64,000 nt of DNA. Origin: Zeus faber (Eukaryota; Chordata; Actinopteri; Zeiformes; Zeidae). Position 1 is the stretch's first letter; every line of letters begins with the position of its first letter. The position numbers were made by a program, and so were the translations under genes. Location: contig OY482849.1 of NCBI GenBank assembly GCA_960531495.1, forward strand, positions 3,462,979 through 3,526,978, read 5' to 3'. Of this stretch, positions 1-40,400 are shown piece by piece. Below the pieces are notes generated by a model. It ran no database searches. It was not told where the DNA came from and saw only the letters and a list, made by a program, of their open reading frames with translations.

Positions 1-21970
<21,970 letters not shown>

Positions 21971-29029: not shown

Positions 29030-29735
29030 TATAGATTCACGATTCAAGATTCAAGAGGTTTATTTGTCACATGCATATACTTTCATACATACGTATAGTA
29101 TATGCAATGAAATGTCAATGCAACGCACCGGTGCTTATGCACAATATGTTTGAAACTGAACACAATAGCTACCTAAAGATTTCTACTTGACTAACTAACT
29201 GATTCCTAAAATGTAATGCAATGAGTAAGTCAAATAATATAGAATAAAATAAAATAAGAACTCAAAGGTAATGCAGAGTGGGTGTACAAAATAGAAATAT
29301 AGGGAATAGTTTTATGTATATAGGATAGGCTATTATGTATATACAGATAGGTACATCATAGTGGCATGTGAATGAAGTGAGGTAGTTTGTGTAGAGATAT
29401 TCAGTACAGTATACAACAGTACGGCGCAGCAATACAGTAACACCGAACAGAACAGCAATACAGCACAGTATGCAGTGACCCAGAACAGTGATACAGTATA
29501 CAGTACAGTATGCTACATACAGTACAGTAAGGTAGTGGAGCATATGTGTGGTGACTCAGTGAGGACCTCTGGTGAGTTCAGCGTTGACAATCCTTATGGC
29601 TTGCGGGAAGAAACTCTGTCTCAGTCTCTCTGTCCTCACTGTGTGACTGCGGAGACGCTTGCCTGACCGCAGCAGCTGGAACAGTCCGTTGTTGGGGTGA
29701 TGAGGATCTTTCATGATCCTACGGGCTCTGCTACT
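29030..29735. repeat. Unclassified interspersed repeat (TTTATTTGTCAC type)
   Basis: It begins with CAAGAGGTTTATTTGTCACA, a sequence typical of the ends of fish LINE-related repeats. ACAGTA-rich degenerate tandem DNA follows, then a block including GCGGGAAGAAACTCTGTCTC. No coding sequence recognised. It abuts the LTR fossil at 29739. Confidence 0.45.
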
Positions 29736-29738
29736 ACA

Positions 29739-31733
29739 GTGGCGTAGTCGACAGGATTCTTGGCAAGGACGAAGTCGAAAAATGGAGCGGTCCTCCCTGG
29801 AGAACCTGGTCAGCCACCTGGCCCAGATGCAGGAGGCGCAGACGATGCTCCTGCAACAGCAGACTCAGACGTTCCAGGCCATAGTGCGAACGCAGGAGGT
29901 GGACCATGAAGCGCTGCAGGAGCTGCTATGGGAATGCCCATCACCCCACAGCCAGCAGCTTCCAGATGCCCCCGCCTTGGTCGTGCTGCAGTGGATGACC
30001 GGTGGGAATGATGCCGAGGCCTTCCTCACCACTTTTGAACTATCGGCGGCGGTGGGTGGATGGGCCAGCAAAGAGATCGCCCTGCGTCTGCTCTCCCTGC
30101 TTACGGAGGAGACGCAGCAGGCAGCCCACAGCCTGCTGACCGCTTCCCGCCACGATTATACGGTGATGAGGAAGACCATCCTGGACCGGCTGGGGCATCA
30201 GACACTAGAGGGACACCGGCAGCAGTTTCAAACCCTGAACTAAACCAGCGCCGGCCGGCCCTTCGCCTATGCCCAGCAGCTAAGGGATGTAGCTAGACAG
30301 TGGCTGCAGCCAGGGGAGAGGACGGCCGACCAGAGCGTCTACGTCATGGTCCTGGACTGGTTAGGCACGGCTCAATGTTTTACAACACTGGATCGAACCA
30401 AGGGCTACTGGCAGATTCCCTTGTCTCCAGAGTCCAGGGAGAAATCGGATGTCTCCACTCCCCAGCGGTTGTACCAATTTGTTACGCTTCAGTTTGGGTT
30501 GTTTCGGGCCCCAGCCACCTTTCCGAGACTCATGGACTGGGTTCTGCGCCCCCACACGTCATATGCCACCGCTTACTTACTGTAGATGATGTAATCATTC
30601 ATAGCGACAGCTGGGGGCGGCACATGCAGCATATGGGGGCAGTTCTCGAGTCCCTGAGGCTGGCGGGGCTTATCGCCAACCCTAAGAAGTGCGCGGTTGG
30701 GTGAAAAGAGGTGTGGTATCTCGGGTACCACTTGGGTGGAGGACTGGTGCGGCCCCAAGTAGATAAGACCGTGGTGATTGCGGCCAGCACAAGATCCAAG
30801 TCGAAAAAGGAGGTAAAGAGGTTCTTGGGGCTGGCCAGCTAATACTGGAGGTTCATCCCGGACTTCTCAGAGTTGACCACCCCTCTAACTGATTTGACCT
30901 CGAAAGAGAGCGTTTGAACGAGTCCAGTGGACGGAGCAGTGTCAGTGAGCTTTTGAGAGCATTTAGATGGCCCTCTGTGGGGCGGCAGTATTGCATACAA
31001 CTGACTTACTCTCCCTTTTTGTCTCTAGACTGATGCGTCGGACAGAGGGCTGGGGGCAGTGTTGTCCCAGCAAGTGGAGGGGGTCGACCGCCCGGTTCTT
31101 TGCATAAGCAGGAAACTTGCAGACCAGGTGACCAAATATAGCACAGTGAAGAAGGAGTGCTTAGCCATCAAGTGGGTGGTCGACACCCTCCGCTACTACC
31201 TCCCTGGGCCCCCTTTCACCCTCTGTTCAGACCACGCTCCGCTGCAGTGGCTCCACTGCATGAAGGACAATGTGCAGATCACCCGTTGGTACCTGGCTCT
31301 TCAGCCTTTTAAGTTCAAGGTGATCCATAGGCCGGGGGCGCAGATGGTGGTAGATGACTTCCTTTCCCGTCTGGGGGAGGGGGGTAGAGTTGGCTCCCCG
31401 GCCTAAAATGGCAATGGTCAGCGTGGTAGACTGACGCTCCCCGCCTCTGTGCCAGCTGTGGCCAATTGAATGACTGGCGAATCACAGCAGCTGGGAAGGT
31501 TTCTTATATATTAGTTTGTCTTGCAGTGAGGGCGATGGCAGGGAATGTGCGGGAGCGCTCCGGAGGAACCCGATCTGAGCCAGTCCTTAAAGTTCTGTCC
31601 TCGTTGAATGCTCCGCACTAGAGGGTTTTCTGTTTAAAACTATGAGCAAAAAAACCCGCCATGCCGGCTCTTCTGCACCGCTAACCCCGTGTCACACATC
31701 CTTAAAAGGAACCTGGGTAGCGAACACGCTACA
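29739..31733 (+). mobile_element. Gmr1-like gypsy retrotransposon fossil, gag to 3' LTR
   Basis: The internal region starts at a primer-binding-like site (GTGGCGTAGTCGACAGGATT). Then come a gag region (29780-30243, QMQEAQTMLLQQQTQTFQA through a long helical domain), reverse transcriptase (about 30355-30900, with YWQIPLSPESREKS and LYQFVTLQFGLF), RNase H (31059-31406, KKECLAIKWVVDTLRYYLPG) and a 3' LTR (about 31424-31733). RNase H abuts the LTR with no integrase after it, as expected for the INT-before-RT order. The region that would hold protease and integrase is missing, and the 5' LTR is not found. The copy is broken in several places. The LTR shares the motif TTTGTCTTGCAG with the family at 12838-16828. 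Confidence 0.8.
31424..31733 (+). repeat. 3' LTR of the gypsy fossil
   Basis: Starts TGGTAGACTGACGC, directly after the RNase H region, and ends CGCTACA. The exact left edge is inferred from its position after the pol region. Confidence 0.6.
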
Positions 31734-31930
31734 GTGTCGTCTCTTTAAAAAAACAAACATTTTTTTACTTTAAACCAAATCTTGTTATAACTTACCTTGT
31801 TGTATGTAAGTACATGGCGGTAGGTGATGTTGGGTCTCGTGTGCGTTAATTATGACATATTTACGTAGGTTTACTTATTTAAGGAGATTTAATATCGTGG
31901 CGGAATTTATGTCATTTTAGTGGTGACTTT

Positions 31931-32006
31931 TTTCCTTGGATTACATTGGTATGTAATCCAAGGAAACAGGTATGTCATGGAAACAGTTACGTTTCCATGA
32001 CATACC
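31931..32006. repeat. Two adjacent perfect 16-bp hairpins
   Basis: Hairpin 1 pairs 31931-31946 with 31951-31966 (loop TGGT). Hairpin 2 pairs 31969-31984 with 31991-32006 (loop AGTTAC). Both have no mismatch and are 2 bases apart. Confidence 0.95.
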
Positions 32007-32611
32007 AACAATTTGTGGTGTTTCTGTGAGTAATTACAATTGCACGGCCTCCATTATTCCGACCGCTTGCTGGATCTTGAACGCATTACTCAGTCGCACA
32101 TTTGAGTTTATTCGACTCGACGTGATCATTATTTTATTGTGGACTACTTTTTGTTCATGTTCGTAGCTTATGTCATTGTTGTGTTCCAGATACTTTTAGC
32201 TGTGTTGGACATATTTAGGCCGCTAAATGCATTGGACCCTGTCTGTGACATCAGGGAAATTTGGTAGATTTTAATTAATTTCTGCTCTGAATGTGGATGG
32301 ACTTGGATGAAACTTCAACCACAGGACATTTGTGACATATCGGTTCAAACAAGACGTGTACTATGTTTGTAGCTTTTGCCAATCTTCTGTTTCAAATAGT
32401 TTTCGATTTCAGAATTCAGATAATTTTCCCGGAACAATAGCTCCTTTCCAATGTTCGAGTTCACAATACATACACAAATAATATCACTTTAGTTATGTTG
32501 TCGTTTCAATCAAGAGGCAACTTTGGTTATTGTATTATTTTCTAAGTCCAATGACATCAAATGTTATTCATTGTATTGAACAGGCCTAGGTATTTCTCTT
32601 CCTCTTTACAG

Positions 32612-33610
32612 ATTTTCACTTGTGACTCTAGAGTCATCAACTCTACCTCCTTCGAGTGTCCCCGTGGGGAGCACGAGTGCAGTCACTCTGCTGCTTTGAT
32701 GATTTGGGCCACCCACAACCTCAGTTCCCCAGTTGTTGAGTGCCGGGAGAAAAAGCCCAATGTGCCATCAGAAAACGTCAAGGAAATGGAGGAGTTTTTT
32801 CCAGTATGGGAGTACAAGCCTCTGATTCGTGCAGTAACCCCAGATGACCTTAAGTTGCTGCTTAGTCAATTCCAATGCCAGTTTACTGGGCTTTCCTTTC
32901 CACTGACTGCATCATGGCCACCCACAAACACCTGGGCAGTGATGTCATCCTTGCCGCCATCAAGATGTCAATGGAGCAGCTAATGGCCATCCAGACAGCG
33001 ACAGTGGGGCAAAAGGACAATCACCTCTGGCATGGTCTGAGGAAAAGGTCGGCTGACAGCAAGCAACTTCAGAAGTGTGCTGATGGCGAAGCGTGTCACC
33101 CCTTCCCTCATTTCCAAGCTCTGTGGGAATCAGGACCTGCATGGAGCACTGGCTGTACAGTGGGGTATAGATAATGAGCAGGAAGGAATCAAGGCATGTG
33201 AAGAAGCCACGAACATGAAGGTCAGAGGGTCTGGTTTGTGGTTGGCTGACTCTGGGAACCTGGGTGCCTCCCTCGATGGCCTGGTGGGAGAGACAGACAT
33301 CATTGAGGTGAAGTACCCATACCCATGGAGGGACCATACTGTTGAGGAAGCAGTGCAGAAGAAGTCATTCTACCTTCATCAAAGGAAGGTGCTGCTTACC
33401 GCCTGAAGCAGGATCACCACTTCTGGCACCAAGTACAGGGGCAGCTTCATATCTCTGCAAAGACCACCTGCTACTTCACCATCTGCACACCCAAGCAGTG
33501 TATGATCAGACCCATCTCCCACGATGACTTCTGGCAGCGTAAGTTGGGGATCTTAGAGTCCTTCTAGAAGGAGCACCTGCTTCGGCAGCTTGTGTAGAAG
33601 TCAATGGACT
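32612..33610 (+). pseudogene. SWIM zinc finger plus YqaJ nuclease gene, broken
   Basis: A splice-acceptor-like TTTACAG precedes 32612. The frame then encodes a SWIM-like finger (CPRGEHECSHSAALMIW), the linker EFFPVWEYKPLIRAVTPDDL, and after frame changes GQKDNHLWHGLRKRSA, KRVTPSLISKLCG and the YqaJ core: WLADSGNLGASLDGLVGE, then IIEVKYP. This gives an Asp-x9-Glu-x-Lys catalytic signature as in lambda-exonuclease-type enzymes. The WHQVQGQL motif follows near 33430. Such enzymes digest or process DNA ends. The first SWIM cysteine is not visible, and several frame breaks make a working protein unlikely. The gene faces the DDE transposase downstream. Confidence 0.75.
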
Positions 33611-34479
33611 AAAACATTGTTTGTTAATAGTAAATAATAGTTAATAATTTCTGAGATCAGTTCACCTTTATACATCCTTGAAGATTTCTACATTGTTAAT
33701 TTTTTTTCTACAGCTGTTCTAATGGTTCTAATTGTTATTTTATTTATGTATTTATTTATACATTTTTTGGGAGGTAGTGGATCAGCGTTCTCGCCGCGCC
33801 ACCTGTCAGTACCTGGTAACAGGGAAGCTAATGATCCAAAACATTAAAGGAAATCCAAACAATGGTGATCATTTCATTAAGGTATGAAAACAAATGGAAT
33901 TTTTTACTGTGCAACTCTGTATTTTACAGTCAGCTGAAAGCCAATCACATAAAACCACACCCTCACGCATGCGTTATTTGAAATGTAATGCAACGAAAAT
34001 GTGCTCAGAAATGGTAATGCAGTATCTCTTTAAGATGTAAAGGTTAGTTTGCAGCTTGCACGGCATAACTGAATGTACTGAACTATAACATACATCAAAT
34101 AAGAGAAATTGTGTCTCTATGTCAGGCCTATAAATGCTATGCTACACCTATTTAATTTTATTTAATTTTTTACATGAGGTGAGGAGACTCAGGACTCAGG
34201 ACTAAACCTACTGTAGGTTCTGAGTCTGGTGGTGCCTACACACTGTATCACAGAGAGAAGAGACTGAACCGGACCAGCTACAATCATGAATTACTGACAT
34301 TTCATTGCCTTAATAATTTAGTGTAAGTCGTCAAGAAAACACAAGTTAATTCATTTAAAAACACATCAGTTGACTAACCACATGTATAGCAATTAAACAT
34401 AGCAATTAAAATATATATAAATATAATACAAAGTCTAAAGGGTCCTTTTGCACTGTGGTTGGCTCTGCAAACTGAAAGT
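33611..34479. other. Spacer between convergent transposon genes
   Basis: AT-rich DNA without recognised coding sequence between the YqaJ and transposase remnants. It may contain their 3' ends and polyadenylation signals, none assigned with confidence. Confidence 0.4.
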
Positions 34480-35270
34480 TAGTCATCCAAATTAAATGCA
34501 ACTTTGATCAAGGGAATCTGGAGATTCACGAAACCACAGCAGTGCTGCGCCACCACATCAGCGGTGCTTTGCAAGCAATGAGGAATGAAATGCAAGATTT
34601 TCTATTCTTTCAAATGGCCATTTGCCCTTTCAACCTGTATCCTGGTCCATGCAATAAGTTGAATATCACTCTTTGTCAACCTGCCATGATGGGATGTTGA
34701 CACTGACTCTGCCTGGCACAATGTCTCAGACTAAAGTTCCTTTATCAGTAAATATAAGATAACTTGACTTGAAGACCTCCAGGATTTCACTCTGAGCCAT
34801 GATGGCCTTGTCAGAGACCGATCCAGGATACAAATTGTTGCAGTATGTTATCAGAGTGTTTAGCGCCACAGCTAGCAAGACTTTAAATGAATGCATGCTT
34901 ATATATGAGGAGTAGATGTGTTTCTGAAGTTTCATGGAAGCTCTAGTAGCAATTCCAACATCTGTGCAATCAATGACCATCCTGCTGTTGCGATACATCT
35001 GGAATGAAGAGGGTAAGCTTGACAGGTTCTCAATTTCTCCTGCCTTGGCACAGTGGTCATGATGTCCTTAAACCACAACTCATGGAGAACATAGATGAAG
35101 ATGAATGTGTACTACATTTGTCACACAAGTGAGCTACACTGAAGAGCTGAGCAAGATGGCTACACTAAGTAGGTTGGTGTAGTTATCAGAGCTTCATGAG
35201 ATTCATGAAGATCTATGGTCATCAAGTGACAGAGATTCTATCTTCCAGCCAGCAAAATAATCAATGGACT
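34480..35270 (-). pseudogene. DDE transposase of ISL2EU/PIF-Harbinger type, broken
   Basis: Minus-strand translation gives, in order, MVIDCTDVGI (first catalytic Asp), YSSYISMHSFKVLLAVA, LITYCNNLYPGSVSDKA (second Asp, in SDK), LIFTDKGTLV, then in other frames IVPGRVSVNIPSW, the VERANGHLKE block (third acidic residue) and HCCGFVNLQIPLIK. This is the DDE_Tnp_4 layout. Frame shifts and stops interrupt it, mainly upstream of 34998 and downstream of 34726. A possible 5' coding piece at 35532-35350 has no recognised domain. Confidence 0.75.
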
Positions 35271-35761
35271 CTTTAAATCTCCTCATATTGCCAACAAAGA
35301 TGTGAAAGATGCTTCTGTCTGGGAGGCAAGCTTCCATTCTATTTTCCATTCATTTCGGTGTCAGCACACTGTCAACGGAGACACTCTCCTCCACACTCCT
35401 GCCCTCCACAGGCAGACACTCCTCCTCGGGCAGACTCTTCCCACGCCGGGAACCATGTTGGACCCCTGTGAAGTCCCTCTCTAAAATGGCAGCTGCACAC
35501 TCTAGAAATGCCACTGGGCCTCCTCTCTGCACACCTTAAATAAGAAAATACTAATTATACATATCTTATATGCAGGGGGTAGGCATAATTAAGTAAATAT
35601 ATCAAAAGAAAACAATTATGTTGTATAGAAAATGTATATGTCTAGCTAACACGTTAATGCTGATAACAACACAAGACTTAGAGAGTTAGAACTTAGAGGT
35701 TAGAAGTAAGAGAGCTGTTAGAGCTGAAGATGAAATTAGTTGTACATTTGCTGAGTTGAAA

Positions 35762-35764
<3 letters not shown>

Positions 35765-35821
<57 letters not shown>

Positions 35822-35822
35822 C
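35765..35822. repeat. AT then CA microsatellite
   Basis: About eighteen AT/TA units run straight into about ten CA units. Confidence 0.95.
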
Positions 35823-36385
35823 ACAAACGACAATACTATGATTGACAATATAGACACTATAATAATGACAAAAGTTCAATTTAAAAGAAGCGTGCTAAAC
35901 TATCGATAGGTTGAAAGTCATTAGAAAGGGATCATTCGCAATGGTTTATGGGATGAGTAGTTCCTTCGCTCTTAAAATAATTATGTACAGTCTTGTACCT
36001 TTGCCGTTTTTCAGTTTTCCTTTTTTTGTCTATTCATATTCGTATGTTTTATGGTCACGATTCATCTTGTAGTTGGTTGTCTTGGTTCCAGGCTTAAAGC
36101 TGTTTATCAGGATTGTCTGAACTGTCAATGGAGTGAATGAATGGGAAATTCACTTCCGAAAATGGAGCCGTTCAAAAAGTGGGCGGTCACTGGTGTGCTC
36201 TTTATGGTTTGTAAATATAGTTTATATTTGTGTTTCCCTTTCCAAACACTAGTCCCATGAATAATTTAATTATATTAAAAAAATAATAATAATAATAATA
36301 ATAAAAAACAAAAACAAACATAAACATAAAAATCAGGTTGAGGTAAAAAAAATGTCTTTTAACAAACTTTGCGCACGCCTTGTTC

Positions 36386-37041
36386 TCTCGCGATAGTCGT
36401 GATTCGGCGCGCGCTGCAACGCCTGCAAACGACACCTTTACATGAATATATCATCAGGTGGGTGCGCCCCCCCCGTGGTATGGTTCTTTTTCCGCCTCGG
36501 AACCTGCGCGGCCAGTTCGCAATTTGTTTGTTTGTGTATGTATGCATGCATGCATGTGTGTGTTTGTGTGTGTTTGTGTGTTAGCAGAGGATCATCAGTG
36601 TCTTTTACGTTGTCATCTCGCAGCTAGGAGGCGACGGTCAAGGAAACCCGCTGGAAAAGAGCTATTTCTCCACTGTTCCATCCTGCCTCCCTCCCCCTCC
36701 CCCTCCTCAAATTTCTCGGCGAATCCCCCGTCGACGGTGGCTGGAGAGTTGGAAGGCTGGGACACACGGAACCGACTACAAGTCGGAACCGACCGTCAAC
36801 TGTGAATCGTCTACAAACAGTTTTTTTTTTTTTTATACAACCGACGCTTTTGTGTCTTCCGAGCTTCCGTCTTTGTCAGGTTTTCGTCTCATCTTCATCG
36901 AGTTTATCTTTTTTATTTTTATTTTTTATTTTTTTTTTTACTTTTATTTTCACCGACGTCGCCGACGCGACATACAGGTGCAAACCGCTGCCCACCGTGT
37001 GGTGTTTATTTGTTTTCAAACAGTCTACATTCTAGATCAAC
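36386..37041 (+). promoter_or_regulatory. CADPS-family gene promoter and 5' UTR region
   Basis: GC-rich DNA before the start codon. A perfect TCTCGCGA core-promoter motif lies at 36386-36393, followed by CpG-rich GGCGCGCGC. Long T runs (36822-36832, 36908-36943) lie in the presumed 5' leader. Several upstream ATGs are present. No TATA box is obvious and the transcription start is not resolved. Confidence 0.45.
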
Positions 37042-37401
37042 ATGTTGGATCCGTCTTCTAGCGAGGAGGAAGGGGACGAGGTTGTGGAGGTGGAGAGGAG
37101 AGGGGTGACGGCCCCGAAGAGCGGGTCTGGAGTTCGGCCGTCACCCGGTCGAACCTGCGACAGCGGCGTTGGCGGCAGCGGCGGTGGCGGCGGGCTTCAG
37201 CCCCCGGGCCGCGGGGGCAGCGGCCGCCCCTCCAGCCCCAACAGCCCGACACCGGGGAGCGAGAAAGAGGATCTGGAGAAGATGCAGAGGGAGGAGGAGG
37301 AGAGGAAAAAGAGACTCCAGCTGTATGTGTTCGTCATGCGTTGCATCGCATACCCGTTCAATGCAAAGCAGCCGACTGACATGGCCAGGCGACAACAAAA
37401 G
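37042..37401 (+). CDS. cadps2: CADPS/CAPS-family secretion activator, first coding exon
   Basis: CAPS proteins prime dense-core vesicles for calcium-triggered release at the plasma membrane. This exon encodes the first 120 residues: an acidic start [13 protein letters not shown], a Ser/Pro/Gly-rich low-complexity linker (residues about 20-78), a charged helix ([19 protein letters not shown]), then [15 protein letters not shown] and [14 protein letters not shown], ending at a GTAAAA donor. This is exactly the first-exon block of vertebrate CADPS genes, whose C2, PH and MUN domains come from later exons not in the window. The start has A at -3. The paralogue is uncertain: the linker and VFVMRC look like CADPS, whereas linkage to nampt (both on human chromosome 7q) favours CADPS2. 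Confidence 0.9.
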
Positions 37402-37422
37402 GTAAAAAATAAAATTAGGGGG

Positions 37423-37461
<39 letters not shown>

Positions 37462-40400
37462 ACATGCATACAACTTCAAACTCCCAAAGAAACAGTGTCC
37501 CAACTCATAACTGCACAGTCGACTTGAGATGATTTATGGAATTAATGATGAAATTAGTTGTTTTTATAGACCCAATTACAATGAATATTGCAAGACACAA
37601 AGCTCTTCTCACAATCGTTTCAATTCGAGAGAGAGAGACAGACAGAGAGAGAGAGAGAGCTGTTGTCTTCCACCCATTGTAGTGGGTCTTGCATAAGTGC
37701 TTTCCCCCCCCCCAGGCATAATTCCTCTCTTCCAGGCCTGTACTTCTTCCTGTTTGAATCACGCAAAGCTCCTGGTTGAACCACACAGTCTACAGTTTTT
37801 AAACAGGCAGGACCTCTTTGAGTCTTTTGAGATACACTGTCCGTCCATCTTCTGTTTCCCATCAGTTTCACCACAATCACTTGGCTCATTGCTATCTATT
37901 TTCTATTTGACATATTTTATTCAAACTCAGATTTATGCCTAACAAAGAAAAACTACTATTATTTAATCTCAGTCCCTCCACACAGTCAGTTAAGCCAAAT
38001 CAGTGTCGAGATAAAATCAATTGCGCCCAACGATTGAACGACTTTGTGACACAGTATTTAGTAAAACTGTCATAATAAAACAAGCAGAAAGGTGTGGAAT
38101 GCTAGACGCCTCCTACAGGCCACTTCTATTGACGTTAGAATGTTAAAACCTTTTCAAGATATCGATGCAACAATTCAGTCCACAAAGACACCTCAGAAGA
38201 TGTTAAAATCATGACGTCAAGGCAGTAGGGCTCACTTGTCTTTTAGCTTCTAAGCATTCCGATTCAGGAATGAAGAAGACTTATCGAACAGGAAAACCTT
38301 GTTTTCTTAATGTGGTTGAGCTAAATATAAAGCAAACTGAATACCCTTTGCCAATGTGCAGTTCTGGCAATACTAAACCACGGACCAAAATGAGACGTAA
38401 TCTTGACTTGTGCTGTTGCTGGTAATGGAGCAAAGAAAATTTTAGGAGATGTCTTATATGGAGCTATGACTGGTGTGCGTTAAGTAATCGCTGCTGTGTT
38501 GTCGGACCGGTTCCTCAGTCGTAGCTTAAGGCATCAGTTTACTCATGATTAAACGGAGCTCTTTGAGTTTGCGACTATAAACAAGCTGAAAGATGTGGTT
38601 TTTAGTTTGGATGTTGCAGTGCATGTGGCAAGCCCACAGAGGGAACTATTCAGCAGTTCACCAACAGTTGTTGGACAAATTGGGCCAATTGGTCCAAATA
38701 TTGAATTGATGGCTAGAGATGAAGAATTCATTGGCTTTCAGTGTAGTTGACCACTGACAACACTGTTCAGGGGTATTCATGTTGTTTAATTTCCCTGAAG
38801 GTGCTTCTCTATATTATACTGCTAAATGTTGTCAAGTTTGTTCTGGTTACTGCAGCTGTTCACTTTCTTTGATTCCCACAGATCTAACAGAAACACAAGG
38901 TTACTTTCCCATCTCGGAAAGGGCAAAGCAAATTGGCTTTAGAGTCAAGCCCAAAGCTAATGTTTAAAACACAAGGCGAGGAGCTGGAATACTGGGAAGC
39001 CTGAACCACTTAAGTGTGGTGAACAAAATTGCTGGGAATGTCCCGAACCCCCCCCACCCACAGGATCAATAAAGTACTATCTTATGTTAGAAGCATAAAC
39101 CAAGGTCATCACTACAGAGTCAGCAACAGGTGCTTTACATTGCACAGTGGTGTCAACATGTTATCTTTGGCTTTGTGTTCTCAGGGGGTGGGTTCATATT
39201 TACTCTAGAGAGGCTATGATGAAAACCACCAGACAACATAGCTTCATCCTGAGGTGAAGGGCTCCACTCAGCTTCACGTATAATATGTTAAGTGGTGCAA
39301 AAACAAACATTACATGTAGATAAAGCATGGTGTGGAGAGAAATTTAGAGTGTACATGTCAACGGTCCCCTATATTTCAAATTCCAGCATTTGTATCTTTT
39401 CAAGTTTTATGGAATATTGTTGATAGCCCCTTCTTTGGAAAAAAAAATTGCCAAACCGGCCCACTGTGCTCCCAAGTATCTGGTTCTATCCCCATGATTA
39501 TTCAGAGAGTTTTTCGGTACCTACTGTATCGTGATTCCTGTTCACCTTGGGGCGTCAGTATGATGGAACCTGTATGAACCCTTTTGAGTCCTCAGGCTGT
39601 TACCTATTAAATGCTACTACAACAGAATCAAATCAAAAATACCTAAAGGGGCTTAATTTTCGAAAAACTAAAAAATTATATCATTTAGTATCTTCAGATA
39701 ATATTAGCAAAAGTTTATTCCACTGAATATGGGAGGGACCTTTGAATAGTCAGTCATTTCCAGAAGAGCTTCAAGCTTCATGTTGACTGATGCCTTTGTA
39801 TCAAACCTCAGTTTGTTAATACTGCATTGATTCCTCCATAGTACAAATAGTTCATTTAAAGCTTTTGTGCTCTTATTAAATAGAGTCCTTTCAAATTGTT
39901 TTTTTCTATCGGGAAGGTTAGTCTGTTAGAAAGGCATTAGTGAGTTGCTTACCTGCCCTATTGAATTATTATCTGAATAAAGCTTAAAGTGCCGACATGG
40001 AAACAATTACTCTGTTATTATTTATCTTATTGGGAGGAGATGTGTGAAGTAGGTGCTATATTGAGCTGCATTTAGAGTGCCAATATTTTGCTGACAGTGT
40101 GAGTAGAGAGGTGAAACAAACAATCATATTCAATACAATGCTAGCTTTGTTTGGACTTAGGACTAAAAGAATAAAGGCTTATAACTAGACATGTTCCAAC
40201 AATAAAAAGGTTTGATACATATTGATAGAAAATTATTTGTTCAGTTTGAGTTTCTGAGTTAATTTCTTCCCACTTCTGATGAAACTGGGACGTTTAACAG
40301 AGACGAGAAGAGGAGCAGGGGAGTGCCGCACTTTTGGAAAAATATGAAACCGATAATGTGGTTAAATTTCCCTACTTGGTATTTGACACTATAAGGAGCA

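Follow-up and report, generated by a model that had tools for sequence, protein, structure and literature searches.

Within the 64,000-nucleotide stretch of Zeus faber DNA analysed here (the window; C5:3462979-3526978, in a genome of 803 Mb and 153 contigs), the remains of two genes lie tail to tail, a YqaJ-type nuclease on the plus strand and a DDE_Tnp_4-type transposase on the minus strand, with about 0.9 kb between their recognisable ends (Table 1). The convergence of the two genes described in the initial annotation is confirmed.

Table 1. Features recognised at the locus, in window coordinates. L006, L007 and L014 are other YqaJ loci of the same genome.
Feature	Positions	Strand	Evidence
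Nuclease N-terminal part	32612-32983	+	tblastn 45% over 31 aa to L006, E=2.7e-5; no Pfam match
Nuclease middle part, frame shifted	32866-33040	+	tblastn 40% over 48 aa to L006, E=4e-4
YqaJ nuclease core, D-x9-E-x-K	33041-33403	+	PF09588 E=1.7e-7, 32.1 bits
YqaJ C-terminal part (WHQVQGQL), frame shifted	33400-33564	+	tblastn to L007, L006 and L014
Short conserved block between the two genes	33752-33792		collinear, 76% to L006, 45 columns, E=0.04 alone
Transposase C-terminal end	34482-34601	-	follows a stop in the Glu-block frame; match to L006
Transposase Glu block, QVERANGHLK	34605-34730	-	frame shifted relative to the core; read from sequence
DDE_Tnp_4 transposase core	34729-35067	-	PF13359 E=1.1e-14
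Tentative transposase N-terminal remains	35206-35535	-	open pieces only; without independent support

The nuclease had been recognised by a YqaJ core with an Asp-x9-Glu-x-Lys block, and this is borne out by the match to PF09588 (cut-off 22 bits) and by alignment of the block LDGLVGETDIIEVK with SPDGLVGDTGLIEIK of the solved exonuclease 3syy (E=8e-4). A PHROGs search matched phage exonuclease families (best E=3e-5), tblastn with the core finds L006 (E=9e-15) and L007 (E=2e-11), and the nuclease DNA at 32956-33515 is identical to L006 in 335 of 568 alignment columns. The WHQVQGQL motif is also present, in another frame; the piece that carries it has no Pfam match when searched alone, and it aligns by tblastn with the part of the L007 gene past its Gypsy insert (50% over 48 amino acids, E=3e-13). 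An AG preceding position 32612 may be a splice acceptor.

The transposase core was recovered again in a genome-wide profile search (E=5.8e-12). Its Asp, Asp and Glu blocks (IDCTD, SDK and VERANGHLK) are still readable, the last in a different frame, in agreement with the DDE_Tnp_4 assignment made earlier; the identity of the second catalytic Asp is assumed here. The C-terminal piece matches L006 at 60% over 20 amino acids (E from 8e-5 to 0.001, according to the search), and its counterpart sits on the strand opposite the L006 YqaJ. The tentative N-terminal remains gave a lone weak match to L006, in the wrong position and orientation, and no match to the THAP piece of L013. THAP was sought in the window copy and gave no match, and neither an HTH nor a THAP domain is seen in this decayed copy.

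Five controls for the short block between the genes gave best E-values of 0.11-5.8; the block is possibly the tail of the transposase gene. From it to the transposase C-terminus there are about 24 bases in L006 and about 710 in the window, so the window has probably gained an insertion between the genes. Open pieces of the nuclease alternate between frames (32555-32983, 32866-33174, 33041-33406 and 33400-33564), making three frame changes, and in the transposase the frame shifts once (34729-35067 to 34605-34730), with at least one additional stop. This leaves both genes dead: the window copy can make neither nuclease nor transposase whole, and its single clean piece is 121 amino acids long.

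Borders and flanking repeats

The span proposed at the outset, 31900..35540, contains both domains. Its first 540 bases (31900-32439) lie outside the element because they are part of an unrelated high-copy repeat, which fills about 31735-32439 and cuts the left side of the element. A search with this repeat returned 2218 first-look candidates, with 69 matches among the 40 scored. The repeat is old; its longer matches put it at 70-84% to the copies elsewhere. Inverted repeats lie within it at 31926-31971 and 31969-32006, and in several of the other copies the middle contains an extra 0.4 kb or more and the tail is CTGGACCCC(AAT)n-like. Nineteen of the repeat loci (of the 69 matches) were compared, each with about 1.5 kb of flank, and barring one simple-repeat match they match window 31000-37000 solely within 31732-32439. 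The shared stretch ends exactly at 32439 in six of the 19, three of which continue with TCAATAGG and one with TCAATAAT, which are absent there in the window. Derivation of this repeat from the element, as a non-autonomous form, is not supported.

Shared ends with a short target duplication had been put forward as proof of a single element, and a search for them at the six YqaJ loci of the genome found neither terminal inverted repeats nor a target duplication at any of them. Scans of the window flanks for terminal inverted repeats covered 32440-32610 and 31700-31760 on the left and 35500-36450 on the right, and their results did not exceed those of 20 shuffles per setting. A self-comparison of the six loci, where decay and other repeats have disrupted the copies, yielded chance-level arms only (best E=1.0). 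Terminal inverted repeats starting GG and an AT target duplication (A|AT|T) were not found, and the borders could not be fixed. An inverted repeat at 31870-31884 and 35534-35548 was rejected as a border at E=18, which is chance level; the left arm falls within the high-copy repeat described above.

Farther out, broken pieces of a Gypsy-like retrotransposon, with reverse transcriptase and RNase H-like frames, were recognised by eye at 29704-31406 (+), and there is an open frame at 37036-37527 (+). We take this frame to resemble exon 1 of the secretion gene CADPS, and by that likeness a conserved neuronal gene would lie a few kb downstream of the relic.

Related loci and the pairing of the two genes

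Searches with the YqaJ piece (three matches) and with PF09588 (four matches) identified six distinct YqaJ loci in the 803-Mb genome, window included. The window, L012, L013 and L014 match the profile, and L006 and L007 were reached through BLAST to the window only. The sequence examined comprised 9.9 kb around each of the five other loci, with a further 3.5 kb for L007; 1.2 kb of the L012 region is N. Convergent transposase remains are found at four of the six (the window, L006, L012 and L013), or three of five without the window. At L006 (C17:7.53 Mb) the nuclease pieces are in order, and the transposase C-terminus lies on the opposite strand just past the nuclease end. At L012 (C17:14.88 Mb) HTH_Tnp_4 (E=8.9e-11) and DDE_Tnp_4 converge on the YqaJ; the start of the DDE_Tnp_4 match is weak (16 bits, under the cut-off), the rest scores 28.2 bits, over the cut-off, and the Glu-region block was read by eye. 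L013 (C1:26.73 Mb) has a THAP domain (E=3.7e-8), a convergent YqaJ and a transposase stretch that matches L012 at 50% over 38 amino acids. The pairing appears at L006 from 20 amino acids, and at L013 from a short match together with a reading by eye. L007 and L014, the other two of the six, have a YqaJ without a detectable transposase in the sequence examined.

We considered whether the nuclease might be a stray gene and the transposase a Harbinger-like one apart from it, two unrelated neighbours brought side by side by chance. The region is rich in repeats, with Gypsy-like pieces to the left (by eye) and the high-copy repeat at 31735-32439, shared ends were not found and two of the six YqaJ loci show no visible transposase, all of which would suit such an origin. 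Against this, the convergent pairing is the same at four of six loci, and the 65 DDE_Tnp_4 profile matches correspond to 57 distinct loci in 803 Mb, so that chance pairing is expected at about 7e-4 per YqaJ locus. At the level of profile matches, pairs within 5 kb occur at two of the six YqaJ loci (one of five leaving out the window), with P=7.5e-6 for at least two of six. The window was selected for having the pair; without it, the one of five at profile level has a chance of about 0.004 at the same rate. These counts already nearly refute two unrelated elements, a reading we hold to be very improbable, and the pair is therefore most likely one element. The initial annotation had named, as an outcome that would speak against its view, genes that always occur apart in other copies; this refutation fails because of the convergent transposase remains at four of six loci, and the proposal of a single ISL2EU-type two-gene transposon is supported.

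A host gene pair domesticated for a cellular function would account for the catalytic blocks that remain readable in both domains. It is contradicted by the frame changes and stops in both genes and by internal stops in three of the six YqaJ matches of the genome, and for the window copy it is already refuted, barring assembly errors at several positions, which leaves it scarcely credible. We conclude, with a probability of about 0.9, that the window contains a decayed, immobile DNA transposon of the ISL2EU group (Harbinger-like, PHIS superfamily) whose ancestor carried two genes tail to tail.

Genome searches with the window YqaJ DNA (one candidate scored) and with the DDE core (three scored) found only the queries themselves, so there is no close sister copy to prove shared borders. 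Against the window piece, protein identity is 44% for L006 and 50-51% for L007, two loci whose DNAs are 82-86% alike. For L012, L013 and L014 the identity to that piece drops to 23-28%; L013 matches L014 at 56% over 68 amino acids and L012 at 44% over 91. From these pairwise identities the genome would appear to hold two lineages, and both the pairing and its orientation are present on either side of the split between window/L006/L007 and L012/L013/L014.

A genome search with L006 DNA found the element itself only at L006 and L007, among 40 scored of 1217 candidates; the remaining rows reflect a different repeat within L006 (query about 426-1295) and not the element. A high-copy repeat lies at about 5416-6279 of L006, between its finger-like exon and its YqaJ core; the 1217 first-look candidates, with 40 of them scored, refer to the search with the entire query. 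The YqaJ gene of L007 (joined with L047) is interrupted at about 5030-10913 by a Gypsy-like element, recognised by eye, whose direct repeats measure 361 bases and are 96% alike; the gene resumes beyond it. Two further transposase genes, both with HTH_Tnp_4 and DDE_Tnp_4, are long and open in a single frame on the minus strand: L035 (1468-2508, 346 amino acids) and L045 (1471-2826, 451 amino acids). None of the six YqaJ loci lies within 5 kb of either, and their catalytic blocks look altered by eye; they are candidates for domesticated ISL2EU-like transposases.

As in other members of its family, the ancestral DDE transposase would have cut the ends of the element and joined them to the target. 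The YqaJ protein probably served to resect or trim DNA ends, in the 5' to 3' direction, while the element was being excised or the donor site repaired, 5'-end chewing by such enzymes being extrapolated from lambda-type exonucleases. Two well separated lineages of one genome seem to have retained the transposase-YqaJ pairing with its tail-to-tail arrangement unchanged, and the nuclease therefore probably did something useful for the element. As far as they go, the ISL2EU descriptions considered here report no test of a role for the YqaJ nuclease in transposition.

A SWIM-like segment upstream of the nuclease core

SWIM zinc fingers follow the pattern CxCx(n)CxH, and such a finger had been proposed to lie ahead of the YqaJ core. 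The peptide encoded at 32645-32725 (+) keeps three of the four ligands (C..C.H, within C..C.H.AA), with Phe at the position of the first Cys, and the L006 homologue has only the C.H of the four. No Pfam match, PF04434 included, was obtained for the window or L006 piece at E<=10, a scope limited by the HMMER filters, which drop most matches above 0.1. Genome-wide, none of 26 SWIM places falls at any of the six YqaJ loci. The profile comparison thus returns YqaJ (PF09588) and DDE_Tnp_4 (PF13359) as anticipated and does not return SWIM, and the SWIM finger is not confirmed.

Judged by its alignment (Table 1), the N-terminal segment is real protein homology between the window and L006, and the SWIM-like part of it is a possible eroded zinc finger. 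We put forward only tentatively, and with considerable doubt, that in this lineage the YqaJ protein had an upstream zinc-finger module of its own, SWIM-like and now eroded. If it did, the transposon may have supplied, alongside its transposase, an end-resection enzyme able to target itself, in effect a small recombination kit. The suggestion in the initial annotation that a SWIM finger may target the nuclease has support at the level of the motif only. Among the papers listed in searches of an open-access library, none mentions a SWIM-YqaJ transposon protein in its title or the opening of its abstract, which does not by itself prove novelty.

Comparison with known systems

ISL2EU elements have AT duplications and terminal inverted repeats that usually start with GG, and most autonomous candidates are described as having a transposase with DDE, HTH and THAP domains and another gene that encodes a YqaJ exonuclease domain (PMC4482050). 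They occur in teleosts, for which the transposase-YqaJ gene set has already been described (PMC4482050, PMC9179366). The window resembles ISL2EU, of the PHIS group (PIF/Harbinger-ISL2EU-Spy), in having a DDE transposase gene and a separate YqaJ gene; sister loci carry THAP (L013) and HTH_Tnp_4 (L012), and this teleost genome has several copies with both genes (four of six YqaJ loci). It differs from the ISL2EU description in that the copy is broken and that the AT duplication and GG-starting terminal inverted repeats were not found. As regards the SWIM-like segment of the window, the word 'swim' is absent from the main texts of PMC4482050 and PMC9179366.

IS4EU, which the initial annotation also linked to YqaJ elements, is a transposon superfamily name listed for Xiphophorus genomes with table values of 0.045-0.053 (PMC4705583), and is known here from that name and table entry alone.

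The window nuclease shares with the phage and bacterial lambda-exonuclease/YqaJ family (e.g. 3syy) the D-x9-E-x-K block and its flanking residues. The usual phage partner of a lambda-type exonuclease is an annealing protein. Unlike the phage and bacterial genes, the window gene lies in an animal genome and adjoins a transposase. This pairing of a transposase with a YqaJ nuclease is not new, and the relic in the window is a defunct member of an already described type of transposon.
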